Below, one piece after another: positions 37,285 through 51,569 of a DNA stretch of 64,000 bases. Position 1 is the first letter of the stretch; every line of letters starts with the position of its first letter. This stretch comes from Spirochaeta lutea (GTDB lineage Bacteria; Spirochaetota; Spirochaetia; DSM-27196; Salinispiraceae), in NCBI RefSeq assembly GCF_000758165.1, contig NZ_JNUP01000049.1:62001-126000 (forward strand), read 5' to 3'. The notes under the pieces were generated by a model, which saw nothing but the letters and a program-made list of their open reading frames with translations, was not told where the DNA came from and made no database searches. The position numbers and the translations under genes are program-made.

Positions 37285-38031
37285 ATGAGTAAACGTGTTA
37301 GTCATTATATCGAAGAAAATGGGATAGCCCATATTCAGATGCACGACCATGAGGGCAAAAACGTATTTTCCCATGCCTTCGTGGAAGATTTTCTGGTGGA
37401 GCTTGATGCGGTTGAAAAGGCAGAGCCCAGGGTTCTGATTTTAGAGGGCTTGGATGATGTGTTTTCCGGGGGCGCCGATAAGGAAAGCCTCATGGACCTT
37501 GCCCATGGTAATATTGTGGTCCGGGATTTGGTAATCAGCGAACGCTTAATTAATACCCGGTTCCCGGTGATCTCCGCCATGAAGGGACATGCCATGGGCG
37601 GCGGTCTGGTTATTGGGCTCTGCAGCGATATTGTCATTGCAGCCCGGGAAAGCAGGTACGGGGCGGTTTTTATGACCATGGGGTTTACCCCGGGGATGGG
37701 AACCACCACCCTGTTGCCGACCCTGGTTGGGCCGTTCATTGCCAACGAGATGATGTTCACCGGTAAGCGGTTTAAGGGTAGGGAGTTAGCGGAAAAGGCC
37801 TGCGGTTTTAACTACATCCTTCCCAAGGATCAGGTCCAGGCCAAGGCCCAGGACGTTGCTTTACAAATCGCCGAGCGGAATGTAAAATCCGTATACCTCT
37901 TAAAGTACACCCTCAGTGCTCCTAAGAAGAAGCTTCTGATAGATGCCCGTCTGCAGGAAGATATGATGCATACCATTAGCTTCGGGTATCCGGAGACCAA
38001 AGAAATTATTAATGATTTATATGCCCACTAG
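37285..38031 (+). CDS. Crotonase-fold decarboxylase, ECH2 (PksI-like)
   Basis: 248 residues. Matches ECH2 enzymes by KNVFSHAFVEDFL, AMKGHAMGGGLVIGLCSDIVI and in particular MGFTPGMGTTTLLPTLVG. ECH2 decarboxylates the glutaconyl-ACP, leaving a methyl-branched alpha,beta- or beta,gamma-unsaturated thioester. AAGGAAA precedes the ATG. It is less than 60% as long as multifunctional crotonases and lacks their dehydrogenase part, as expected. With HCS and ECH1 it completes a beta-methylation set. Confidence 0.9.
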   Translation: MSKRVSHYIEENGIAHIQMHDHEGKNVFSHAFVEDFLVELDAVEKAEPRVLILEGLDDVFSGGADKESLMDLAHGNIVVRDLVISERLINTRFPVISAMKGHAMGGGLVIGLCSDIVIAARESRYGAVFMTMGFTPGMGTTTLLPTLVGPFIANEMMFTGKRFKGRELAEKACGFNYILPKDQVQAKAQDVALQIAERNVKSVYLLKYTLSAPKKKLLIDARLQEDMMHTISFGYPETKEIINDLYAH

Positions 38032-38053
38032 GGGCCGGAACAAGGAGCGGTAA

Positions 38054-38869
38054 GTGATAACGATAGATTTTAGCGGAAAATCAGTACTCATAACCGGAGG
38101 GACGAAGGGAATCGGGCTTTCCACAGCTCTGAATTTCGCCCAGGCCGGGGCTCAAACCTATTTAACCTACAAGTGGGGAAGTGCGGATAATGATCAGCTG
38201 ATGGCCCAGTTTGATGCAGTTAATGGTCCCAGGCCCATCCTGTTACAGGCCGATGTATCGGTGGATGAGGATACCGATGCTCTGCTGGAGAAGATTGCCG
38301 AGACCAGCCCCCAGGGTGTGGATATATTCATCTCCAACGTGGGATACGCTGCGACAATGAAAACCCTGGACAACTACAAAAAGCGCAGTCTTTTCAAGAC
38401 CCTGGAATATTCCACCTGGCCCATGATAGAGTACACCCGGAAGATCCAGAAGCGATTCGGTCGATACCCCGAAAAGGTCGTGGGAATTTCCAGCGACGGC
38501 CCGGATCATTATTACCGGGGATACGACTATGTGGCTGCCAGCAAGGCTCTACTGGAGTTCTTCGGGAAGTACCTCTCGGTTCACCTCTTTGAAGAGGGTT
38601 CACGGGTGAATGTGATGCGCTTCGGTACGGTTAAGACAGAATCCTTTACTGCCATATTCGGTGAAGAGTTCTTTGAGTACTTGAAGAACGAGGGTGTTTC
38701 TGAACAGATGATTCTCACCCCCGAGGCCTGCGGTAAGGCGGTATTTGCCCTCTGCAGCGGGTTTATGGATGCGGTGAACGGGCAGGTGATCAATGTTGAC
38801 TATGGCCTGCCTTTCCAAGATAATAGCATGATGCGTTACCTGAACTGGAAAGAAAAGCAAACCCAGTAA
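38054..38869 (+). CDS. Enoyl-ACP-reductase-like SDR (FabI/FabL-type active site)
   Basis: 271 residues with a GTG start, AAGGAG seven bases upstream. The nucleotide motif is TGGTKGIG (14-21). The classical Y-x3-K is absent: four positions before K164 stands Val. Instead Y157 and K164 are spaced Y-x6-K (GYDYVAASKALLEFF), the arrangement of enoyl reductases FabI and FabL. I therefore favour an enoyl-thioester reductase that saturates the chain or the branched product. A further Tyr at 159 leaves some doubt. Together with KS, KR and the FabZ-like enzyme it would complete a private fatty-acid elongation cycle. Confidence 0.75.
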   Translation: MITIDFSGKSVLITGGTKGIGLSTALNFAQAGAQTYLTYKWGSADNDQLMAQFDAVNGPRPILLQADVSVDEDTDALLEKIAETSPQGVDIFISNVGYAATMKTLDNYKKRSLFKTLEYSTWPMIEYTRKIQKRFGRYPEKVVGISSDGPDHYYRGYDYVAASKALLEFFGKYLSVHLFEEGSRVNVMRFGTVKTESFTAIFGEEFFEYLKNEGVSEQMILTPEACGKAVFALCSGFMDAVNGQVINVDYGLPFQDNSMMRYLNWKEKQTQ

Positions 38870-38916
38870 GCGCAGGATAATAAAGACCTTACCAATCGTA
38901 AGAAAAGGAGTTATTA

Positions 38917-39165
38917 ATGACCAAAGCAGAGGTTATTGAGGTAATTAAGAAGAATATCGTTGAGAACCTCGACGATGTTGAGTTGGATGAGATTGATGTT
39001 ACTAAGTCAATGAAAGACTACGGTGCCAACAGCCTTGATATTATTGAGGTTGTTTCCTGCTCCATGCGGGATCTTGACATCAAGATTCCCCGTTCAGAGC
39101 TGGCAGACATCGGTGATATTGACGGACTTGCTGAAAAGTTCATGCAAAACATCGGCGATAACTAA
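38917..39165 (+). CDS. Acyl carrier protein
   Basis: 82 residues, acidic. The phosphopantetheine site is S39 in YGANSLDIIEVV; the Asn before Ser (GANSLD rather than GxDSLD) is a feature I associate with the donor ACPs of beta-branching cassettes such as AcpK. It should carry malonyl/acetyl units or the growing chain. AAGGAG precedes the ATG and a terminator follows, so it closes the first operon. A second ACP is not encoded in the window, so either this one serves as donor and acceptor or the housekeeping ACP takes part. Confidence 0.92.
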   Translation: MTKAEVIEVIKKNIVENLDDVELDEIDVTKSMKDYGANSLDIIEVVSCSMRDLDIKIPRSELADIGDIDGLAEKFMQNIGDN

Positions 39166-39184
39166 GGGTTTTACACCCCTAAGG

Positions 39185-39215
39185 CCCGGGGTCTATGAAT
39201 GGTCCCGGGTTTTTT
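39185..39215 (+). terminator. Terminator after the ACP gene
   Basis: CCCGGG (39185-39190) pairs with CCCGGG (39204-39209) and is followed by TTTTTT. The stem is short but GC-pure; it marks the end of the fabD-to-ACP transcript. Confidence 0.65.
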
Positions 39216-39457
39216 CGTACTACCATCCGTTTTCCGTCACGCATTGGTATAGACCGGTTCGCGACGGAAGGCTCGGCGGCGCGTCTTCCCTCGGGTGTTC
39301 ACGACTGGGCTCTGAACAGTGACTCGGGTGCATCCTTACGGGAGTGCTATCCGGTCTCCGGACCACTGGAATACCCGCCGCCGCGTTCCTGTTCAGACAT
39401 GTACCATGATTCCGGGGCAGGGGCGGATATTTTTCCATGAATAAGGAACGATTTACT

Positions 39458-40714
39458 ATGTCTGATGTAACCAATTTTAGTCTTGCAGACTTCCATTACA
39501 ATGATAATCCGGATGTTCTGTCTCCCCCTGAGGATTTTGAGTCCTGGATCAACAACCCCACCGTGCAGCGGGCCTTTAGCTTTACCGGACAGCAGCTGCT
39601 CCGGGCTCCTTCGGCGGAAACGGAAATCCTGTCTAATCTCGACGGAAAAAGCCGCCGGATGATTAACATGACCAGCTACAACTATCTCGGTCTCTCCACC
39701 CACCCCGAGGTGCTTCAAGCCGCGAAAGAGGCGGTGGACAAGTACGGTATGAGTTCTTCGGGTGCACCCTTGGTATCCGGCACCCTGGATATCCACGTGA
39801 AATTCGCCGAACAGCTTGCGAAACTGAAGGGTAAGGAAGCTGCGATGATCTTCTCTTCGGGGTACGGCGGTAATGTAGGCGCCCTTCAGGGGCTTATGCG
39901 GAAGGGAGATGTAATCGTTTTCGATGAGAAGGCCCATAAGTCTCTGATTGACGGGGGAATTCTCAGCGGGGCGAAGATGCTCTTCTTCGATCACAACGAT
40001 ATGACCAGCCTGGAACAGATGCTCGAAAAGGCAAAGGGGAAACGTACCCTTATCTGTATTGAGGGTGTCTATTCCATGGACGGGGACATCTGTAAGCTCC
40101 CCGAAATTGTCGAGCTATCCGAACGCTACAACGCCCCGATCTACCTGGACGAAGCACATTCGAGCCTCATGTTCGGTGAGAACGGAGGAGGTATCGGTGA
40201 GTACTTCGGTATGGAGGATAAGATCGGCATTAACTACGGTACCCTCTCGAAGAGCTTCGGCGGGGTAGGGGGCTTCATTGCCACGAAGGCTAACCTGATA
40301 ACCTACTTGAAGGGCTATGCCTCGAGTTGGAATTTCAGTTGCGCCCCCAGTCCGCCGGTTGTTGCCGCCCTCACCAAGGCCCTGGAGGTAGCTACCCGGG
40401 ATAGTACCCTCCGAGATCAGCTCTGGTCGAATACGCGGTACATGAAGGAGAATCTCGAAGCCATGGGCTTGGATTTAGGCGGCACAGAAAGCCAGGTTAT
40501 TCCGATTATTATCGGAGCCAGCGGGGAGCGGCTGTTCACCTTTGCTGAGCAGATGCAGCTCCGGGGATTGTTCCTCCAGCCCATTGATTATCCGGCAGTA
40601 CCCGCCCATGCCCGGCGGTTTAGAATCTCTGTTTCTTCCCAGTTCTCTCGGAAGGATATGGATGAGGCGCTCAACATTATAAACGACGTTATTGCGAAGG
40701 GATTAAAAAAATAA
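39458..40714 (+). CDS. Alpha-oxoamine synthase (serine palmitoyltransferase/KBL/BioF family)
   Basis: PLP enzyme of 418 residues from the ATG at 39458 (AAGGA upstream); an in-frame ATG seven codons earlier is possible. MTSYNYLGLSTHPEV, DEAHSSLMFG and the Schiff-base Lys K265 in GTLSKSFGG are typical. These enzymes condense an amino acid with an acyl-CoA or acyl-ACP, losing CO2, to give an alpha-amino ketone: 3-ketosphinganine (Ser), KAPA (Ala) or 2-amino-3-ketobutyrate (Gly). No bio or tdh genes are adjacent, whereas ACP and fatty-acid-type enzymes are, so I infer chain release from ACP as in sphingolipid, prodigiosin or CqsA-like systems. The amino acid used cannot be deduced. The 3' end is two bases from the dehydratase start. 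Confidence 0.9.
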   Translation: MSDVTNFSLADFHYNDNPDVLSPPEDFESWINNPTVQRAFSFTGQQLLRAPSAETEILSNLDGKSRRMINMTSYNYLGLSTHPEVLQAAKEAVDKYGMSSSGAPLVSGTLDIHVKFAEQLAKLKGKEAAMIFSSGYGGNVGALQGLMRKGDVIVFDEKAHKSLIDGGILSGAKMLFFDHNDMTSLEQMLEKAKGKRTLICIEGVYSMDGDICKLPEIVELSERYNAPIYLDEAHSSLMFGENGGGIGEYFGMEDKIGINYGTLSKSFGGVGGFIATKANLITYLKGYASSWNFSCAPSPPVVAALTKALEVATRDSTLRDQLWSNTRYMKENLEAMGLDLGGTESQVIPIIIGASGERLFTFAEQMQLRGLFLQPIDYPAVPAHARRFRISVSSQFSRKDMDEALNIINDVIAKGLKK

Positions 40715-40715
40715 C

Positions 40716-41255
40716 ATGGACGCCCTGGAGCTGGAAAAACTACTGAAAAAGCACCGTAAAAAGTTGTTATTTGATCCCGCAGACGTATCCACCCCCTTGG
40801 ATCTGGACACATCTGCGATTCAGAGGATCATCCCCCACAGGGATCCTCTGCTGTTTGTTGACCGGTTGACGGGCCTCGATCTCCAGGAGGGACGCATCGT
40901 GGGACAGAGGACCTTGCACGCCTCCGATCCCGTGTTTCAGGGACATTTTCCCGAAATGCCCCTGTATCCCGGGAACTTCACCATTGAGATGATCGGGCAG
41001 CTGGGACTATGTATGTACTACTTCGTCTCTCAGGACCGGACCGAGTTGGGGGATGATGCCAGGCCGGTACCGGCCAGAGCTACCCGCATTGCCGGAGCAT
41101 ACTACCTGGAACCCATTGAACCCGGGAAAACCGTTACCCTTCTGGCTCAGAAACTGGATTTTGACGGGTATTTCGCCAGCATGATCGGTCAGGCCGTGGT
41201 AGACGGCAAGGTGGCGGTAGTCACCATCGGTGAAGTCATCATTCTGGAGGATTGA
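40716..41255 (+). CDS. FabZ/FabA-like hotdog dehydratase
   Basis: 179 residues. After a 30-residue charged extension comes IPHRDPLLFVDRL and the catalytic GHFPEMPLYPGNFTIEMIGQ with H77 and E91, the dehydratase pair. It should remove water from 3-hydroxyacyl-ACP. It is about 30 residues longer than FabZ. It starts two bases after the alpha-oxoamine synthase stop, so these two are co-translated; a terminator follows. Confidence 0.88.
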   Translation: MDALELEKLLKKHRKKLLFDPADVSTPLDLDTSAIQRIIPHRDPLLFVDRLTGLDLQEGRIVGQRTLHASDPVFQGHFPEMPLYPGNFTIEMIGQLGLCMYYFVSQDRTELGDDARPVPARATRIAGAYYLEPIEPGKTVTLLAQKLDFDGYFASMIGQAVVDGKVAVVTIGEVIILED

Positions 41256-41312
41256 AGCAGGGGGAGGCAGAGGAGCCTACCAGCTTAGCTTAGGGCAGAA
41301 GTAAAAACAAAG

Positions 41313-41352
41313 ACCCCGGGACCGGTTCTGAGAACCAGCTCCGGGGTTTTTT
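41313..41352 (+). terminator. Terminator after the dehydratase gene
   Basis: ACCCCGG and CCGGGGT pair around an inner GGTTCT-GAG-AGAACC stem-loop, followed by TTTTTT (41347-41352). The remaining stretch 41353-41585 holds no gene or recognisable signal. Confidence 0.85.
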
Positions 41353-41585
41353 CGTGTGATCATACACTGGGGTGTAGAGGATTCAAAGGGCGATCAGGGA
41401 ATGGTGCGGCTCCAGGAATCGGGGTTCGGGCTGCCGATGGGCTGGGTTCAATCCCCTGGCCATTACCCACGGGACTACCCAAGGATGGGGAACCCTCCCC
41501 GCCTGGAAGCCACACAGGAGCGGGTACCGGACGGATCCGGCAGTTTCCCGGAACCCCGAGGGTCAGCCCGGAGACATTCTTCGGG

Positions 41586-42845
41586 CTATTCGAACCTGCT
41601 GAAGATCAGGGTTGCGTTGTGGCCGCCGAAACCGAAGGCATCGGAGAGAATGTGATAGATATGTTTCTCGGTAGGCTCTTTTACTACGTTCAGGTTTATA
41701 TCCGGATCCTGCTCGAACTGGTTAATCGTTGCGTGGATGACACCGCGTTTAAACGCCATGATGGCGGCTATGGCCTCCACGCCCCCTGCAGCCCCGATGA
41801 GATGTCCGACCATGGATTTTGTGGAGTGTACCATGACCTTCTGTGCAATGGTGCTGCCCAAGGCGCGGTTTATTGCAGTGGACTCGGCTTGATCTCCCAC
41901 GGGAGTAGAGGTGCCGTGACAGTTGATAAGATCAATCTGATCGGTATTGAGTTTGGCCATATCCAGGGCGGCGGTAATCGCCCGGGCCGCTCCCTTGCCC
42001 TCAGGATGGGGAGCCACAAGGTCATGAGCATCACTGGTAAATCCGAATCCGGTTACCTCTGCATAGATGGTTGCACCCCGTGCCTTGGCATGTTCCAGCT
42101 CCTCCAGAACAAGCACCCCGGCGCCCTCCCCCATGACAAAGCCATCTCGATCCTTGTCGAAGGGCCGGCTGGCAGTCTGGGGATCATCGTTCCGGCGGCT
42201 CAGGGCGCCGATGTTTCCGAAGGCGGCGATTCCCGGTATTCCGGCTACCGCCTCGGTGCCCCCGGCCACCATGGCATCGGCCATGCCCATTTTAATAAAG
42301 TTAACCGCAACCCCCAGAGAATGGTTGCTGGAAGCACAGGCCGAGCTGATGGCGAAGCTCGGCCCCAGGAGGTTATGTTCTTGGCTGAGCAGGGCCGAGG
42401 CGCTGTTGGAAATAGCACCGGAGATGTAAAAGGGGCTTGCCATCTCCATTCCCCGGTCCTTGATCCGGGGAATCTGGTCCCAATGGGTCATGAGACCCGC
42501 ATCACCGGTTCCGATAACCACACCGCAGCGGTGCCCCATGCGTTCGGTGTCCAAACCCGAATCGCGGATGGCCTGAACACCGGCAATCTGGCTGAAGGTA
42601 ATAAACCGGCCCAGGCGGCGCATCATTTTTCTGCTTTTAAAATAATCTGCAGCGTTTTCCGGAAGATCGACCTCAGCAGCAATTTTTACGTGGTACCGGG
42701 AAAGATCCATGTTCTGAGCAATGCGGGTTCCGCTTTTACCTGCGGTAAGGTTATCCCAGAATTCGTCCACGGTATTTCCGATGGGATTAATGGTTCCGAG
42801 TCCCGTAACGACGACCCGGCGTTCAAATGGATTTATGCTGCTCAC
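41586..42845 (-). CDS. Beta-ketoacyl-ACP synthase II (FabF-like, KS2)
   Basis: The start is GTG at 42843-42845 with GGAGG seven bases upstream; the frame remains open a further 60 codons but crosses the divergent promoter region. 419 residues. RRVVVTGLGTINPIG opens the fold; C170 in SSACASSNHS, the His in NCHGTSTPVGD and the KSMVGH His form the complete elongating triad. This is a canonical FabF-like enzyme. It is the only cluster gene on the minus strand and shares a 105-base divergent promoter region with the phosphopantetheinyl transferase gene. It probably elongates the acyl chain, while KS1 has a specialised task. Confidence 0.9.
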   Translation of the reverse strand: MSSINPFERRVVVTGLGTINPIGNTVDEFWDNLTAGKSGTRIAQNMDLSRYHVKIAAEVDLPENAADYFKSRKMMRRLGRFITFSQIAGVQAIRDSGLDTERMGHRCGVVIGTGDAGLMTHWDQIPRIKDRGMEMASPFYISGAISNSASALLSQEHNLLGPSFAISSACASSNHSLGVAVNFIKMGMADAMVAGGTEAVAGIPGIAAFGNIGALSRRNDDPQTASRPFDKDRDGFVMGEGAGVLVLEELEHAKARGATIYAEVTGFGFTSDAHDLVAPHPEGKGAARAITAALDMAKLNTDQIDLINCHGTSTPVGDQAESTAINRALGSTIAQKVMVHSTKSMVGHLIGAAGGVEAIAAIMAFKRGVIHATINQFEQDPDINLNVVKEPTEKHIYHILSDAFGFGGHNATLIFSRFE

Positions 42846-42950
42846 CTCTGTTCCTCCGTCAGCTGGTTCTAAGATTTGCAAAATCCTACTATACTTTGGG
42901 CAATAAATCAAATTACCGCACCCCGGTGTGCACCCGTGAAGGAATCTGAC

Positions 42951-43646
42951 ATGACCATCGGCGATATTCCCCTTGAGATTTCCCTGATTCAGTATCATGA
43001 TGAGGATCCGGGCAGCTATCAGCATCTTTTAGACCAGGGTGATTTGAATGATTTGCGCAACCTGGCAAGTCCCCGAGCCTTTCGGGAGCTGGGCTGGCGC
43101 AGGGCCATGCTGCGGAAAACCCTGGCAGAACGGACCGGTCAAGCCCCGGATCGCCTGGTTATAATCAGGGGAGATCATGGTAAGCCCAGACTTGAGGGGG
43201 CCGATATATCCTTTAATGCCTCCTACAGTACGGGGCTCTTGGCCCTGGTTATGTATCCCGGGGATGCCGGGGAGGTAGGGGTAGATATTGAGTTTCTGGA
43301 TCGCCGGGGAGGAGACAACCGGATCCGGCGCCTGGGTGAGGTGGTCCTGCAATTCTTCGGACAGGACGAACAGCAGGTTCTGGGCGAGACCGGACCGCCT
43401 GGCTGTGATGCCTGGCTTGAGGAGTTTTTTCGGCTGTGGACCCGGAAAGAGGCCTTGGTGAAGGCCTGGGGTGAGAGCATCGGTAGTCATGGATTGTTTA
43501 CCACCCTGGATAGTCCCGTATTATGGCAGGGAAGGGCCTGGTGGACCGGAGATTCGGTGGTAACCAGAGGGTCGGATCGATGGTGGTTGGGGGTAGCCGG
43601 ATCCGGACCGATAACTATGGATACCCGAAACTATAGACTAGTATGA
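42951..43646 (+). CDS. 4'-Phosphopantetheinyl transferase (Sfp type)
   Basis: 231 residues from the ATG preceded by AAGGAA (25 upstream codons rejected because they overlap the divergent promoter). The metal and CoA-binding signature is present: GVDIE with D112 and E114, and WTRKEALVKAWG with E167 and K171; GKPRLEGADISFNAS is the usual preceding loop. It should attach phosphopantetheine to S39 of the cluster ACP. A dedicated Sfp-type enzyme next to a discrete ACP supports a secondary, not housekeeping, pathway. The SDR gene follows after ten bases. Confidence 0.92.
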   Translation: MTIGDIPLEISLIQYHDEDPGSYQHLLDQGDLNDLRNLASPRAFRELGWRRAMLRKTLAERTGQAPDRLVIIRGDHGKPRLEGADISFNASYSTGLLALVMYPGDAGEVGVDIEFLDRRGGDNRIRRLGEVVLQFFGQDEQQVLGETGPPGCDAWLEEFFRLWTRKEALVKAWGESIGSHGLFTTLDSPVLWQGRAWWTGDSVVTRGSDRWWLGVAGSGPITMDTRNYRLV

Positions 43647-44705: not shown

Positions 44706-45344
44706 TTATTGGGGGATCTTCGGGGGTTCGCCGCCTTCGGGAACAAAGATGAGGGCTGCGGAGTTCATACAGTAGCGCAGGCCGGTGGGCTGGGGGCCGT
44801 CGGGGAATACGTGGCCAAGGTGGCTGCCCGATTTGCTGTCCACAACCTCTACCCGGGGTGCGAATAGGGTGAAGTCCCCGAGAAGGTGTACGGCTTCGGG
44901 ATTGATGGGTTTGGTAAAGCTTGGCCAGCCGGTTCCCGATTCATATTTGTCATCGGAGTGGAAGAGGGGTTCACCCGTGGCCGCGCTGTAGTAGATTCCA
45001 CGCTCCTTGTTGTTCCATAGGGCGTTGTCGAAGGCCCGTTCTGTTCCGTCCTGCCGGAGGATGTAGTAGCGATGGGGGGAGAGGATGTCCTGCCACTCTT
45101 CCTCGCTCCGGGTGATGGGATATTGGAAATCCTCAGGAAGCTGGGTGAGTGTAATTCCGTCTATTTCTTTTGCATTTCTGTTCATGGTGCTTCTCCCTTC
45201 AATATCCGGGACTGGTGATGTTTTACCCCGGTCTTCCCCCGAACCCTGGGCAGCTGTCTGGATTGGCACTATAATGAGAATCCAAAGCAGTAGTAGCGGA
45301 AGCCCCAGACGCTTAAACCTTATAAAAAAGCTATGGTATTCCAT
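44706..45344 (-). CDS. msrB: Peptide methionine-(R)-sulfoxide reductase, exported
   Basis: 212 residues. An N-terminal hydrophobic segment (RLGLPLLLLWILIIVPIQTAAQ) predicts export or membrane anchoring. The MsrB domain (about 75-205) contains TERAFDN, SGTGWPSF, GSHLGHVFPDG and the catalytic Cys in RYCMNSAAL. Zinc-binding CxxC pairs are absent. It repairs oxidised methionine in periplasmic proteins, probably with electrons from a thiol relay not encoded here. It is divergent from the cytochrome c synthase gene; both act on the outer face of the membrane. Confidence 0.92.
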   Translation of the reverse strand: MEYHSFFIRFKRLGLPLLLLWILIIVPIQTAAQGSGEDRGKTSPVPDIEGRSTMNRNAKEIDGITLTQLPEDFQYPITRSEEEWQDILSPHRYYILRQDGTERAFDNALWNNKERGIYYSAATGEPLFHSDDKYESGTGWPSFTKPINPEAVHLLGDFTLFAPRVEVVDSKSGSHLGHVFPDGPQPTGLRYCMNSAALIFVPEGGEPPKIPQ

Positions 45345-45402
45345 ACCAACAAGGTACTGAGGAATCGGATTGTGGGCAAGAAAATGATGGAGACAGGTGA
45401 TT

Positions 45403-48400
45403 ATGGCTGAACGGAGGATGCGGGGCCGGCTATTCGGTGCATGGGCTCGGGGATTCGGGGCGGTTCTACGAGGTTTTGGATCCTTGAAGCTGTCGGTGGT
45501 GCTGTTAGCCGCTCTTGTGGCGGTGGTGTTTATCGGGACCCTCTATCAGGTTGATAAGGGGGTGTACCTGGCTCAAGAGGTTTTCTTTTTTTCCTGGTTT
45601 ACAACCCAATGGATTATTCCCCTGCCGGGGGGGCAGCTGCTTCTCTGGCTGCTCGGCGTGAATCTGATGGTTTCCCTGGTGGTGCGGCTGCCCAGGGTGA
45701 GGCCCCGATTAGGACTCCTTATTTCCCACGGCGGCTTGGTTGTGCTCATGCTCGGGGCGTTTACGGGATTGTACCATAGCGATTCCTTCATTATGGCATT
45801 GCAGGAAGGCGCAACGGAGGAACGGGTGTATCATCGCTCCGATTGGGACCTGGTGGCCTATGAATTTCCCGGAGGCGGCGAGCTGGGACGGATCGGTTTG
45901 GAAACTATCCGGGAGGGGCGGGCCGAGCCCATGAACCTGGCGGGGGGGCTTGAAATCACCCTTAGGTTAGAAACCATCTATCGAAACAGCCGCCGGGTTT
46001 CAGATTCGCAACTGGAAGCACTTCCCCTGGATGATGAGGTAATCCGAAACTTTCCCGGAGTACGCGGCAGGGTGGAGATGGCCGGACGGAATGTACCCTT
46101 GGTGCTTCACGGAGGCGATCAGGGGGTGGCAGTGCTCGGTGCTGTAGAGGGTCTTCAGGGGCGTGAGATTGGTGTATTTCTGGAGCCCAGGTCGGTGGCC
46201 CTGCCCTTTTCGGTGACCTTGGAGGACTTTGAGGCGTTGTTTCACCCGGGAACGGATGTGCCGGCCTCCTTCGCCAGTGATGTACGGATCCAGCATTCCA
46301 GGGGGGATGGTATCGATCTGGAGGCGAGGATATCTATGAACAGTCCCCTTCGGCATGGGGGATACACCTTCTACCAAAGTAGCTACCGCCAGGCGGATCC
46401 GGAGCTTGGGATTGCCAGGGATCTGTCGGTGTTTGCCGTGCGTCGGGACGGAACGGCCTGGCTGCCCTACGCCGGAACCCTAATAACCGTGCTGGGGTTA
46501 GTGATTCACCTGTTTCAGCGGCTTGGCCGCAGGGGAGGCCGGGGAGGCCGAGGAGGCCGAGGAGGCGGCCGAACGCCCAGGGCCGCCCTCCCGGGAGGCG
46601 GCCGGAACGGAGGCGGTGGTTCTGGAAGGCGGGCTGTGTTCGGTAGCGGTGTTGTAGCGGTTCTGTTGGTGGTAGCGTCGGGGCTTGGGTATGCCCAGAC
46701 CCCCGAGGGGGAGGTAGGCGAGGTATTCCCGCCGGGTTCCCCTGGGGGGGATGTAAACCGAGGGGCGACAGAAACCCAGGGATGGCTGGAGGCCCCCGAT
46801 CTTTCGGGTTTGATTGTGCAGCAGAGCGGCCGCACCATGCCCCTGGGCTCTTTAGCCCCTGGATTGGTACGGAATCTATCCGGAAAGACCGGGGTAGGGG
46901 GCTATACCCCGGAGCAGATCCTCTCGGCCATGATTCGGGGTGAGGATGCCGTTTTGGATGTACCCCTGTTTGTGGTGGATAATCCCGGGGTATTTCCGGT
47001 TCTTCGCCTGCCCTTTGAACAACGGGGGCGGTATTCTTACCGAGAACTCCAGGGGGGCCTGGGTATCCTGGAACAGATTCAGGATGTAATCACCCAGCGG
47101 GAGGCAGCGGGTACGGAGGATGCCTTGGAGCTGGAGTTGATCAGGCTGTACCGCCGGGGACGGTTGTTCGCCCAGGTGTTTGATGCTCCCCAAGACGGGG
47201 GGTACGGCGATTCTATTCTGACCCTGGTTCCTCTGGAGCAGCGGGTGAGCAATCAGGCTGGGTATCGCTGGGTAGATCCCCGGTCGGCCTTGGAGCTGCT
47301 GGACAGCCCGGGGTACCGGCTGCCGGATGTGGAGCAGGGTTCTCGTTCTGATTCAGGGGAGCAGAGAAACTCCCGGATCAGGGCGCTGATCGAGCAGATG
47401 GCCGGGCTTGATTGGGGTCGCCTGGAGCAGCAGCAGGCTGAACTGCTGAATCTGCTGGGCCTGGAAGACTATAAAATCCGCGGAGAGGTGGAGGCCCTGT
47501 ACCGCAGGTTCAATCCGGTGTTCTGGGCCATGGTTTCCACCGGGTTGGGGCTTAGTATCGGCTGGCTTTCGGCCCGGAGACAGCGGGTTATGCCCCAGGG
47601 CGGCAGCCTATCAGGGGATAGGATGTACCGGTTCGGCCGGGTCGGCGAGCTGATTCTGCTCTGGGGTGGAGTGGTTTTTGTGGCGGGGGCATTGGTTCTC
47701 CGGGTGGTTATTACCCGGCGGCCCCCGGTGACCGATTTGTCTTCCAGCGTGTTGTTCGTGGGCGCCACGGCGGTCCTGGTGGGAGCGGTGTTGCGTACCT
47801 GGGGGGTCGGGCGGTTCGGCAGTCCCGGACAGCTGGCGGGGTGGTTTGCCCTTGCCTTGCTGGGGCTGAGCCGATATCTCCTGGGGAGCGGGGATGAGCT
47901 GGGGGTGATTCAAGCGGTATTGGACACAAACCTGTGGCTGAGCGTACACGTTCTCACCATAGCCTCGGGTTATACCGCTGTGCTCCTGGGGGGTATTACC
48001 GCCAATGCCTATACCCTGACGGCAGTTCTCCGCCCCCGGGCTGACCGGTTTCTCCAGATGCTGTACCGGGTAATGTATGTGAGTCTACTGGCGGGGTTGG
48101 TGCTGAGTTTTTTTGGAACCATGCTCGGGGGATTCTGGGCTGATCAGGCCTGGGGACGGTTCTGGGGCTGGGATCCCAAGGAGAACGGCGCCCTGATGAT
48201 TGTATTATGGACGGCCATGGTTCTTCATATCCGTCCAGCGGGATTCGGGGGGAGTTACGGAACAGCCCTGGCGGCAGGATTCGGGGTTGCAGTGACTGCG
48301 TTCAGCTGGTTCGGGGTGAACCTCATCGGCCAGGGGCTGCATAGCTACGGGTTTTCGACCCGGACATTGATGCCCCTGGTGGTATCCTTGCTGGTAGAAC

Positions 48401-49434
48401 TGGTGATCCTCGGGGTTGGTCTTGGGGGCATGAGGCGGTACCGATGGGCCCAGCTGCTGCCTCGGGAGGTCCTGGGGCGGGTGGACAGTCGAATCACCCT
48501 AGACGATGAAACCATGCACGTATGGATACGGGTCGGGGCCGCGGATCATGAGAGACTGGTCTCCCAGTACCACCCGGGCCAGTATATGACTCTGGGGCTG
48601 GACCGATGGGGATCGATTCAGCGTCGGGTTTTCTCCATATCCGGGGTTGATGAGGGACGATGGCGGTTTACCCTTCGTGATTCGGGTAACCGCGGGGTAA
48701 GCCAGGGCTTGATGAAGGCTCCCCTGGGGACACGGGTTGGTGTGCTCGGTCCCGGGGGTGATTTACGTGGGCCTGATCTCAAGGATCCTCCGTCTGGAAA
48801 AAGGATGATGGCGGTGGTTCAGGGGGTGGGAATCGGTCCGGTGCTTCCCATACTTCAGGGGTTGCTTCCCCGGGGCTGGTCTGCCTGCATTCTCTGGGCA
48901 GGGAGCTGGGAGGATGAGGAGCTCGCAGGCTTATCTAAGGATTATCCCGGAGCTTTGGAGCTCCGGCGCTTTGACGGGACCCACCGTCTGGACCTCGGGG
49001 GGGTTAGGGCTGCCCAGGAAGAATTCCGCATCCCGGACAACCTGGTGCTTATTGTGGGATCCCAGGAGTTTGTGGAAAGCTTTGATGTACCCGAAGCTCA
49101 ACGTGAGGCCTTTATCGCTAGTCGAAATTCGGCGGGGGGCGCAGTGCCCATTTCTCAACGGAGCCACATCCTCGGGTTCGCGGGGATATCCCGGACCGTG
49201 CATGTGGCGGCAGGTCAGAACCTGTTGTCCGCCATGGTTGAGGCCGGGGTGGATGCGCCCTTCGGATGTGCCGGGGGCCAATGCGGCGAGTGCAAGGCTC
49301 GGGTGGTATCCGGCAGGGTTGCGATGGAGCTGCCCAATATCCTGGGACGGTCGGTTGCAGGGCCCGGAGAGGATACTCTCACCTGTTCTGCCTACCCCCT
49401 GGAGGATGTTACCCTGGATTTAAGCGAGGATTAA
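45403..49434 (+). CDS. ResB-CcsA cytochrome c synthase fused to a ferredoxin reductase and [2Fe-2S] ferredoxin domain
   Basis: The ATG at 45403 follows AGGTGA; a GTG two codons earlier is possible. 1343 residues. Order: ResB part with helices near 30-50, 75-98, 103-122 and 365-385 and the signature NSPLRHGGYTFYQSSY (313-328); a Gly/Arg-rich linker (about 388-425); another helix; a periplasmic stretch (450-700); then CcsA with six or more helices, a candidate haem His near 849 and the WWD-type motif WGRFWGWDPKENGALM (917-932). From about 1020: a flavin-reductase barrel with RRVFSISG (near 1074) and a nucleotide domain (MMAVVQGVGIGPVLP), then a plant-type [2Fe-2S] domain C1289-x4-C1294-x2-C1297-x30-C1328. 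CcsBA attaches haem to apocytochrome c and needs reduced haem. The extra domains, probably cytosolic, could supply electrons. Fused CcsBA is known; this C-terminal extension I do not recognise. Confidence 0.9.
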   Translation: MAERRMRGRLFGAWARGFGAVLRGFGSLKLSVVLLAALVAVVFIGTLYQVDKGVYLAQEVFFFSWFTTQWIIPLPGGQLLLWLLGVNLMVSLVVRLPRVRPRLGLLISHGGLVVLMLGAFTGLYHSDSFIMALQEGATEERVYHRSDWDLVAYEFPGGGELGRIGLETIREGRAEPMNLAGGLEITLRLETIYRNSRRVSDSQLEALPLDDEVIRNFPGVRGRVEMAGRNVPLVLHGGDQGVAVLGAVEGLQGREIGVFLEPRSVALPFSVTLEDFEALFHPGTDVPASFASDVRIQHSRGDGIDLEARISMNSPLRHGGYTFYQSSYRQADPELGIARDLSVFAVRRDGTAWLPYAGTLITVLGLVIHLFQRLGRRGGRGGRGGRGGGRTPRAALPGGGRNGGGGSGRRAVFGSGVVAVLLVVASGLGYAQTPEGEVGEVFPPGSPGGDVNRGATETQGWLEAPDLSGLIVQQSGRTMPLGSLAPGLVRNLSGKTGVGGYTPEQILSAMIRGEDAVLDVPLFVVDNPGVFPVLRLPFEQRGRYSYRELQGGLGILEQIQDVITQREAAGTEDALELELIRLYRRGRLFAQVFDAPQDGGYGDSILTLVPLEQRVSNQAGYRWVDPRSALELLDSPGYRLPDVEQGSRSDSGEQRNSRIRALIEQMAGLDWGRLEQQQAELLNLLGLEDYKIRGEVEALYRRFNPVFWAMVSTGLGLSIGWLSARRQRVMPQGGSLSGDRMYRFGRVGELILLWGGVVFVAGALVLRVVITRRPPVTDLSSSVLFVGATAVLVGAVLRTWGVGRFGSPGQLAGWFALALLGLSRYLLGSGDELGVIQAVLDTNLWLSVHVLTIASGYTAVLLGGITANAYTLTAVLRPRADRFLQMLYRVMYVSLLAGLVLSFFGTMLGGFWADQAWGRFWGWDPKENGALMIVLWTAMVLHIRPAGFGGSYGTALAAGFGVAVTAFSWFGVNLIGQGLHSYGFSTRTLMPLVVSLLVELVILGVGLGGMRRYRWAQLLPREVLGRVDSRITLDDETMHVWIRVGAADHERLVSQYHPGQYMTLGLDRWGSIQRRVFSISGVDEGRWRFTLRDSGNRGVSQGLMKAPLGTRVGVLGPGGDLRGPDLKDPPSGKRMMAVVQGVGIGPVLPILQGLLPRGWSACILWAGSWEDEELAGLSKDYPGALELRRFDGTHRLDLGGVRAAQEEFRIPDNLVLIVGSQEFVESFDVPEAQREAFIASRNSAGGAVPISQRSHILGFAGISRTVHVAAGQNLLSAMVEAGVDAPFGCAGGQCGECKARVVSGRVAMELPNILGRSVAGPGEDTLTCSAYPLEDVTLDLSED

Positions 49435-49688: not shown

Positions 49689-50171
49689 TTGAAGTCTCAG
49701 TCAAAACACCTGGTCAGCGTATACGTGCAGGACGGCCCTGGGGTAAGTATTAGAATCGCCTTGGTTTTTGCCCGACGGGGATACAATATTGAATCCTTTG
49801 TGGGATCCGAGACAAATAAGCCCGGCTTTTCACTGGTAAATATCGTCGCATCGGGGGATCAAGAGGTACTTCATCAGATTATTAATCAGCTGAACCGGTT
49901 AGTTAATGTACTGGAGGCCCGGGAGATTGATCCGAAACAGACCCTCCAGAGGGAGCTAGTTTTGTTTAAGGTTAATGTGGATGCCGAGCAGCGGCCCGAG
50001 GCGGTGATGATCGCCCAAGCAGCGGGTTGTGAAATCATTGAGGTGCTTCCGGAGTACATTTCTCTGCAATGTGTGGGAACCAGCGAAAAGATTGACGGTG
50101 TGGTTCGCATTTTTTCTGATTTTGGAATTCGGGAACTGATGCGGACCGGAAAGGTTTTTTTATCTCGATAG
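49689..50171 (+). CDS. ilvN: Acetolactate synthase regulatory (small) subunit
   Basis: 160 residues with a TTG start; AAGGAG lies seven bases upstream. The N-terminal ACT domain is typical (VSVYVQDGPGVSIRIALVFARRGYNIESFVGSET), followed by the IlvH-type C-terminal part (about 85-160). It binds the catalytic IlvB subunit and gives feedback inhibition by valine. No catalytic subunit is adjacent, which is unusual since the two are commonly neighbours; the large subunit must be elsewhere. A terminator follows, so the gene forms its own transcript. Confidence 0.92.
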   Translation: MKSQSKHLVSVYVQDGPGVSIRIALVFARRGYNIESFVGSETNKPGFSLVNIVASGDQEVLHQIINQLNRLVNVLEAREIDPKQTLQRELVLFKVNVDAEQRPEAVMIAQAAGCEIIEVLPEYISLQCVGTSEKIDGVVRIFSDFGIRELMRTGKVFLSR

Positions 50172-50243: not shown

Positions 50244-51569
50244 GTGAAAAGCATTGCGAGGTTCTTTAAGTTTCAGGAGCTTAATACAGACCTGAAGACA
50301 GAGGTGTTGGCGGGAATTGCAACCTTCCTGACCATGGCGTACATCATTGTGGTTAACCCCCTGGTGTTAAGTGATGCCGGGATGCCCTTTGAGGGTGTTT
50401 TGTTTGCCACTGTTCTGGTGAGTGCGGTGACATCCATTCTCATGGGCTTGGTGGCTAATCTTCCCTTCGGGCTGGCTCCCGGTATGGGGATTAACGCCTT
50501 CTTTGCCTACAGTCTGGTGCTTGGCATGGGAATGGAGTGGCAGACAGCTCTGGGTGCGGTGTTCATCTCAGGGATCATCTTTATTCTCCTATCCATCTTT
50601 AAGGTTCGTGAGGCCATTGTACGGGCTATCCCTACCACGATTCGCTATGCCATTGCCGCAGGAATTGGGTTGTTTTTAGCCCTCATCGGTTTACGCAGTG
50701 TAGGATTCATTGTATCCAATCCTGCAACCATGGTGGGATTCGGCGGGATTACGCCGGTATTGCTCATATTTTTAGCGGGGTTCTTAGTTACCAGCGTGTT
50801 GGTGATTAAGCGGGTAAAGGGTGCCCTTATCATGGGGATCGTATTTACCTCACTGGTTGCGTTTATTGTGAGTCTCATCACCGTGGCGGCCGGGGGTGAA
50901 GGGTTTGTTTCCCTGCCCGAGGGGATCTTTGCTCTTCCAAGTTTGGAGGTGTTCTTTAAGCTTGATATCGCGGGTGCCCTGTCTGCTGGAATGATTCTGC
51001 CGATTTTCAGCCTGTTGTTCACGGATATGTTCGATTCTATCTCAACCTTCGCAGGGGTGTCCGAGGTGGGCGATTTTATCGATAAGGAATCCGGTGAACC
51101 GAAGAATGTAGGAAAGGCGCTGCTGGTGGATGCCATTGGAACCACCCTGTCCGGGCTCTTCGGCACCTCCAGTGCAACCACCTACATAGAGAGTGCAGCC
51201 GGGGTAGAAGAGGGCGGCCGGTCGGGATTCTCTGCGGTTGTTACCGGATTGCTGTTTATTCCCTTCATGTTCCTTTCCCCTCTGCTCAAGTTTATTCCTG
51301 AGGTTGCTACCGCACCGGTATTGGTTCTTATCGGAATCTTTATGGTTAAGCCCCTCATGAAGATTCATTGGACCCATTTTGACGAGGCTATTCCTGCATT
51401 CCTCGGGCTGATCCTCATCCCCCTGACCTACAGTATTACCCAGGGTGTGGTTTGGGCATTTCTAAGCTGGACTGTGTTGAAGGTTCTGCTCGGGAAAGCA
51501 AAGGAAGTTCCGGTTACCCTCTGGGTGATTGACGCCTTCGCCATCCTTTCTCTTGTGTTATCCCATTAA
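50244..51569 (+). CDS. Purine permease, AzgA/PbuG type (NCS2-like)
   Basis: 441 residues with a GTG start and an excellent AAAGGAGGT site. Twelve or more hydrophobic segments; NTDLKTEVLAGIATFLTMAYIIVVNP, GLAPGMGINAFFAYS and FGTSSATTYIESAAGVEEGGRSG are the hallmarks of the adenine/guanine/hypoxanthine permeases rather than the uracil or xanthine group. It should import nucleobases by proton symport. No purine riboswitch fits in the 30 bases between the preceding terminator and the start. Terminators on both sides make it monocistronic. Confidence 0.93.
   Translation: MKSIARFFKFQELNTDLKTEVLAGIATFLTMAYIIVVNPLVLSDAGMPFEGVLFATVLVSAVTSILMGLVANLPFGLAPGMGINAFFAYSLVLGMGMEWQTALGAVFISGIIFILLSIFKVREAIVRAIPTTIRYAIAAGIGLFLALIGLRSVGFIVSNPATMVGFGGITPVLLIFLAGFLVTSVLVIKRVKGALIMGIVFTSLVAFIVSLITVAAGGEGFVSLPEGIFALPSLEVFFKLDIAGALSAGMILPIFSLLFTDMFDSISTFAGVSEVGDFIDKESGEPKNVGKALLVDAIGTTLSGLFGTSSATTYIESAAGVEEGGRSGFSAVVTGLLFIPFMFLSPLLKFIPEVATAPVLVLIGIFMVKPLMKIHWTHFDEAIPAFLGLILIPLTYSITQGVVWAFLSWTVLKVLLGKAKEVPVTLWVIDAFAILSLVLSH

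Follow-up and report, generated by a model that had tools for sequence, protein, structure and literature searches.

The window analysed here is a stretch of 64,000 nucleotides from Spirochaeta lutea (contig NZ_JNUP01000049.1, positions 62,001 to 126,000 of the forward strand). It contains a gene in which a System II cytochrome c synthase of the CcsBA type continues into a ferredoxin-NADP-reductase (FNR)-like module and a plant-type [2Fe-2S] domain. The reading frame starts at an ATG at 45403, ends at 49434 on the + strand and encodes 1343 residues without an internal stop. The G+C content at third codon positions (GC3) stays between 0.61 and 0.77 throughout the gene and is flat over the fusion junction. 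The gene and its parts are as follows, with the basis of each assignment in brackets.

45403 to 49434, + strand: whole gene, ResB-CcsA-FNR-like-Fer2 fusion of 1343 residues (single open frame; Pfam and NCBIfam domains)
45389 to 45397, + strand: likely ribosome-binding site GGAGACAGG, upstream of the ATG (sequence)
45403 to 46602, + strand: ResB/CcsB part, residues 1-400, with the first transmembrane haem histidine (TM-His1), H109, at codon 45727 (Pfam ResB; conservation of H109)
46603 to 47622, + strand: linker helix (411-429) and second periplasmic region, residues 401-740 (hydropathy)
47632 to 48432, + strand: CcsA core, residues 744-1010, with P-His1 H849 (47947), TM-His2 H942 (48226) and P-His2 H980 (48340) (Pfam, conservation, fold match to PDB 7s9y)
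48136 to 48210, + strand: WWD haem-handling motif, W912-W936 (conservation)
48367 to 48423, + strand: last transmembrane helix, residues 989-1007 (hydropathy, positively charged flank)
48445 to 48792, + strand: FNR-type flavin-binding barrel, approximately residues 1015-1130, with RVFS (1075), GVSQGL (1098) and GPGGDL (1116) (NCBIfam, alignment with PaaE, solved structures, profile comparison)
48802 to 49152, + strand: NAD(P)-binding lobe, approximately residues 1134-1250, with GVGIGP (1141), VGS in place of CGP (1218-1220) and shortened loops (alignment with PaaE)
49165 to 49431, + strand: plant-type [2Fe-2S] domain with C1289, C1294, C1297 and C1328 (Pfam Fer2; PDB ferredoxins; cysteine positions)

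Both domains of CcsBA are present according to Pfam and NCBIfam: ResB is matched at residues 102-332 (E = 6e-19), Cytochrom_C_asm, the CcsA domain, at residues 780-980 (E = 8.8e-20), and the NCBIfam CcsB model covers residues 754-983 (E = 4.7e-29). Residues 401-740, comprising the linker helix and the second periplasmic region, have no Pfam match. All four haem histidines are accounted for, as a TM-His pair (H109/H942) and a P-His pair (H849/H980). H849, H942 and H980 are invariant (100%) among 88 CcsA relatives, and H109, located in ResB's third hydrophobic segment, is kept in 98% of ResB relatives; the WWD motif is likewise recognised by its conservation among the CcsA relatives. The CcsA part is modelled confidently by AlphaFold, with most blocks at a predicted local distance difference test score (pLDDT) of 85-97, and the best fold match of the modelled core is Helicobacter hepaticus CcsBA (PDB 7s9y); CcmF is another of the four matches with E <= 0.001. 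Judged by these motifs, the synthase half looks competent and is predicted to attach haem to CXXCH sites. A Gly/Arg-rich low-complexity stretch, RRGGRGGRGGRGGGR, is encoded at 46528-46575, past the last ResB helix and ahead of the next one, and is cytoplasmic by topology.

Like the fusion, H. hepaticus CcsBA is a single ResB-CcsA chain with four haem histidines, a WWD motif and large periplasmic parts, but it has no cytoplasmic redox module. According to a structural review, fused CcsBA proteins have no distinguishing cytoplasmic domain beyond a possible haem entry site (2023; PMC10663686). CcmF, the System I synthase (PDB 6zmq), has a related WWD/P-His core and holds a transmembrane haem that is the proposed reductant of the incoming haem; unlike the fusion, it carries no fused reductase, and quinone or NADH has been proposed as its own reductant.

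Beyond the CcsA core, the chain matches the NCBIfam models PaaE, BenC, MmoC, flavohaemoprotein and PyrK, and profile comparison with PaaE-type reductases gives a probability of 99.5% over 287 columns. Solved flavohaemoprotein and PyrK structures align weakly with the flavin/NAD stretch, and Pfam Fer2 covers residues 1261-1332 (E = 9.1e-12). The first-pass annotation had described complete ResB and CcsA parts continuing into an FNR-like module and a plant-type [2Fe-2S] domain, and Pfam, NCBIfam and the profile comparison bear this out, with a tail of approximately 330 residues; the four cysteines it had named for this domain lie exactly at the positions it gave. The module retains GQYMTL, RVFS, GVSQGL, GPGGDL, GVGIGP and all four of these cysteines. 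In RVFS, which corresponds to the flavin RxYS-type motif, the R and S columns are invariant with PaaE proteins. C1162 is the only cysteine of the whole protein outside the [2Fe-2S] set. PaaE and phthalate-dioxygenase-reductase-like enzymes share with the module the order of flavin, NAD and [2Fe-2S] parts, the RxYS-type motif, GxGIxP and the four Fe-S cysteines; they differ in that the module, at approximately 28-32% aligned identity, has a shorter NAD lobe, VGS for CGP and a membrane synthase fused to it. Binding of flavin and of the cluster by the module is likely, and oxidation of NAD(P)H, which is less well supported, is plausible.

A single hydrophobic helix (989-1007) follows the periplasmic H980 and is itself followed by the positively charged GMRRYRW. 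With exactly one membrane crossing after H980, the module should face the cytoplasm, as hydropathy and the charged flank suggest, and it would then lie on the side of NAD(P)H and of haem entry. Almost no linker separates the last CcsA helix from the module.

To look for clients of the synthase, CXXCH-coding sites were surveyed over the whole assembly; all 151 were located, against 154 in a reversed control, and the context of nearly all was examined. This left three plausible c-type haem proteins, two sensors and one P460-like lipoprotein (L161:543-2583, G000:C42; L187:1-1577, G000:C68). One sensor is a methyl-accepting chemotaxis protein with a Tll0287-like domain (PF11845, E = 1.5e-26). The other, a membrane-anchored nucleotide cyclase, carries CTVCH in its periplasmic part; its Tll0287-like match is only sub-threshold, and its gene adjoins that of the P460-like lipoprotein (PF16694, E = 3.7e-14). 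A recent preprint reports that Tll0287-type domains bear covalent c-type haem (PMC12889525). For a cytochrome c synthase, two signalling proteins and a P460-like lipoprotein would be unusual clients. A connection with nitrite reductase or with class I cytochromes c was considered and dropped, as NrfA (PF02335) has no match in 10 genomes and CBB3-type cytochrome c (PF13442) none in the genome itself. A lack of quinones in the organism, which could account for a need for NAD(P)H, was also considered: no cytochrome bd was found in the genome, but one MenA-like prenyltransferase was, below the NCBIfam cut-offs. Two CcdA-like genes each adjoin a ResA/TlpA-like thioredoxin gene (L139:819-2445 and L141:1177-3414), so several periplasmic thiol-reducing systems coexist. 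With the thiol-reducing arm of System II present apart from the fusion, the module would more likely serve the haem arm.

We consider the protein to be a System II cytochrome c synthase with a lineage-acquired, C-terminal cytoplasmic haem-reductase module, and give this reading a probability of about 0.55. It is supported by the retention of the haem histidines and the WWD motif, by the full-length homology of the tail to FAD-NAD-[2Fe-2S] reductases and by the cytoplasmic placement of the module, as well as by the presence in the genome of ResA-like and CcdA-like genes and candidate substrates. Ferrous haem is required for thioether formation, and the electron path from NAD(P)H that the first-pass annotation had suggested is plausible, although the NAD(P) lobe is shortened and has VGS for CGP. 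NAD(P)H would pass a hydride to the flavin, from which single electrons would go on to the [2Fe-2S] domain at the C-terminus. The latter would dock near the cytoplasmic haem entrance and reduce the haem in the TM-His site (H109/H942); the reduced haem would then shift to the WWD/P-His site (H849/H980) on the periplasmic side and be joined to CXXCH thiols that ResA/CcdA keep reduced. Every electron step in this scheme is inferred, and so are the loading of the cofactors, the donor NAD(P)H, the acceptor haem and the docking.

Yeast Cyc2p, the haem reductase of System III, offers a comparison: this flavoprotein uses NAD(P)H to reduce haem and interacts with HCCS (PMC3884852). The likeness is one of role, haem reduction for a cytochrome c synthase; unlike the module, Cyc2p is a separate mitochondrial protein whose redox domain lies towards the intermembrane space. 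A reductase built into the cytoplasmic side of a synthase suggests that the electrons for haem reduction come directly from the cytoplasm, and a single purified protein would allow the reduction of haem by NAD(P)H and its attachment to be measured jointly.

Several observations weigh against a working haem reductase. Pfam NAD_binding_1 has no match in the module even at E up to 10, the CGP position reads VGS and the loops of the NAD(P) lobe are shorter than in PaaE. AlphaFold gives the module mostly pLDDT <50 when modelled with CcsA, and a mean pLDDT of 41.5 when modelled alone. The fusion is also a singleton, its one source being a draft assembly in 69 contigs, and relatives without the module (two genomes of the same family, G001 and G003, and the 88 CcsA relatives) indicate that the synthase does not generally need it. 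As regards recognition by family models, Pfam FAD_binding_6 reaches 12.6 bits on the flavin lobe, below its cut-off of 21.1 bits; with this sub-threshold score and no NAD_binding_1 match, the reductase part is detectable only by profiles or by comparison of the whole module, and a Pfam-architecture search would see only ResB, Cytochrom_C_asm and Fer2.

Whole-protein searches of 395 Spirochaetia genomes found relatives of the synthase, none of which extends beyond approximately residue 1022. In searches of the same genomes with the tail only, the sole full-length match was the protein itself, and seven other genomes match the ferredoxin part only. The best 80 matches of a representative-genome scan (84,980 species) all end at or before residue 1034 and none is fused; these searches leave room for fused relatives in metagenomes or below those 80 matches. 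In the 88 CcsA relatives, the part of the chain that extends past residue 1010 has a median length of 12 and a maximum of 74 residues. An open frame of 1118 residues in genome G112, taken as a possible second fusion, was rejected, being an upstream read-through with a tail of just 74 residues. An unfused precursor, an FNR-Fer2-like gene beside ccsBA, was not found by phmmer in the 88 relative loci, nor was any relative of the module found in the viral contigs scanned. No description of such a protein was found in the open-access literature. The first-pass annotation had pointed to no described protein of this architecture and had named many described homologues as what would count against it; these searches returned none and support the rarity of the architecture. 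Both halves belong to known families, and their union in one chain is, in the genomes and papers covered, a single case so far. Because the module is absent from all other relatives, gain in this lineage is favoured over loss in G001 and G003.

An extended form of the haem-reductase reading, which we regard as unlikely, makes the protein a self-powered redox machine, in which electrons from NAD(P)H would travel via flavin and [2Fe-2S] to the TM haem and then to the periplasmic haem site. One chain would both export reduced haem and be able to pass cytoplasmic electrons across the membrane, and its main clients would be sensors, not respiratory cytochromes. It is rather improbable that the synthase channel and the two haem sites serve mainly as a transmembrane electron path to a periplasmic acceptor, in the manner of NADPH oxidase or MsrQ, with maturation secondary. 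Among MsrQ-like and PepSY-like electron exporters, membrane haem proteins commonly carry FNR-type C-terminal domains, and in NADPH oxidases, as in the fusion, a cytoplasmic FNR-type module is attached to a membrane haem protein at its C-terminus (PMC8238504). The top fold matches include Streptococcus pneumoniae NADPH oxidase, at a root-mean-square deviation of approximately 20, so the match reflects a similar domain order and not a superposition. The small number of c-type haem proteins in the genome and the divergent neighbour encoding an exported MsrB (methionine sulfoxide reductase; 44706-45344, - strand) would also suit an exporter. However, MsrB lies on the opposite strand, the synthase motifs are all intact, and the c-type haem sensors and the P460-like protein require a synthase, no other close ccsBA having been found in the genome. 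Exporters of the NADPH oxidase type have a PF01794 or PepSY membrane domain and deliver electrons to periplasmic proteins, iron or oxygen rather than to haem for attachment, and PF01794 is absent from the Pfam matches of the fusion up to E = 1.

A redox or NAD(P)H sensor, in which the module would gate haem entry by the cytoplasmic redox state without supplying electrons in turnover, is similarly doubtful. The NAD(P) lobe is divergent and lacks CGP, while the flavin-lobe motifs and the Fe-S ligands are retained; the complete flavin-to-Fe-S chain, in the order of a working reductase, suggests electron transfer instead. There is also little likelihood that the fusion merely anchors the module to the membrane for the reduction of a separate cytosolic substrate. 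This would accord with its closest relatives, the monooxygenase and dioxygenase reductases that serve separate partners, but the adjacent genes include none for an oxygenase partner, and hardly any linker remains between the last CcsA helix and the module. An artefact joining two genes by mis-assembly or frameshift has a negligible probability, even though the fusion occurs in one assembly only and two close relatives lack the module, as the junction has no stop or frame change, GC3 is continuous, and a chimera would require an in-frame insertion at the exact end of a gene whose neighbours keep their order.

That order is defined by two genes downstream of the fusion, which lie outside the proposed function and serve as synteny anchors.

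49689 to 50171, + strand: ilvN, acetolactate synthase small subunit (Pfam ALS_ss_C; same neighbour at loci L021 and L022)
50244 to 51569, + strand: permease of the Xan_ur_permease family (same neighbour at L021 and L022)

In G003 and G001, ccsBA stops shortly past the last CcsA helix (AGLGKQLNKRAKKAGENQSK in G003), ilvN lies within approximately 110 bases of its end and the permease follows, so that the order synthase-ilvN-permease is as in the window. The reductase module is placed in frame precisely between the conserved end of ccsBA and the conserved neighbour ilvN. With the module in frame at a conserved gene end, synteny kept and GC3 unchanged, the gene is taken as a genuine fusion and mis-assembly as very unlikely; the sequencing or assembly error against which the first-pass annotation had cautioned is effectively ruled out by the open frame, GC3 and conserved synteny.

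Elsewhere in the genome (L140), a DsbD/CcdA-thioredoxin fusion has an MsrA-like frame next to it; this and the exported MsrB suggest periplasmic methionine repair. In the window, positions 37285-43646 hold a cluster of acyl-chain genes (enoyl-CoA hydratase-like, short-chain dehydrogenase/reductase, 8-amino-7-oxononanoate-synthase-like, FabA-like, ketoacyl synthase and phosphopantetheinyl transferase), possibly a small polyketide-like pathway.

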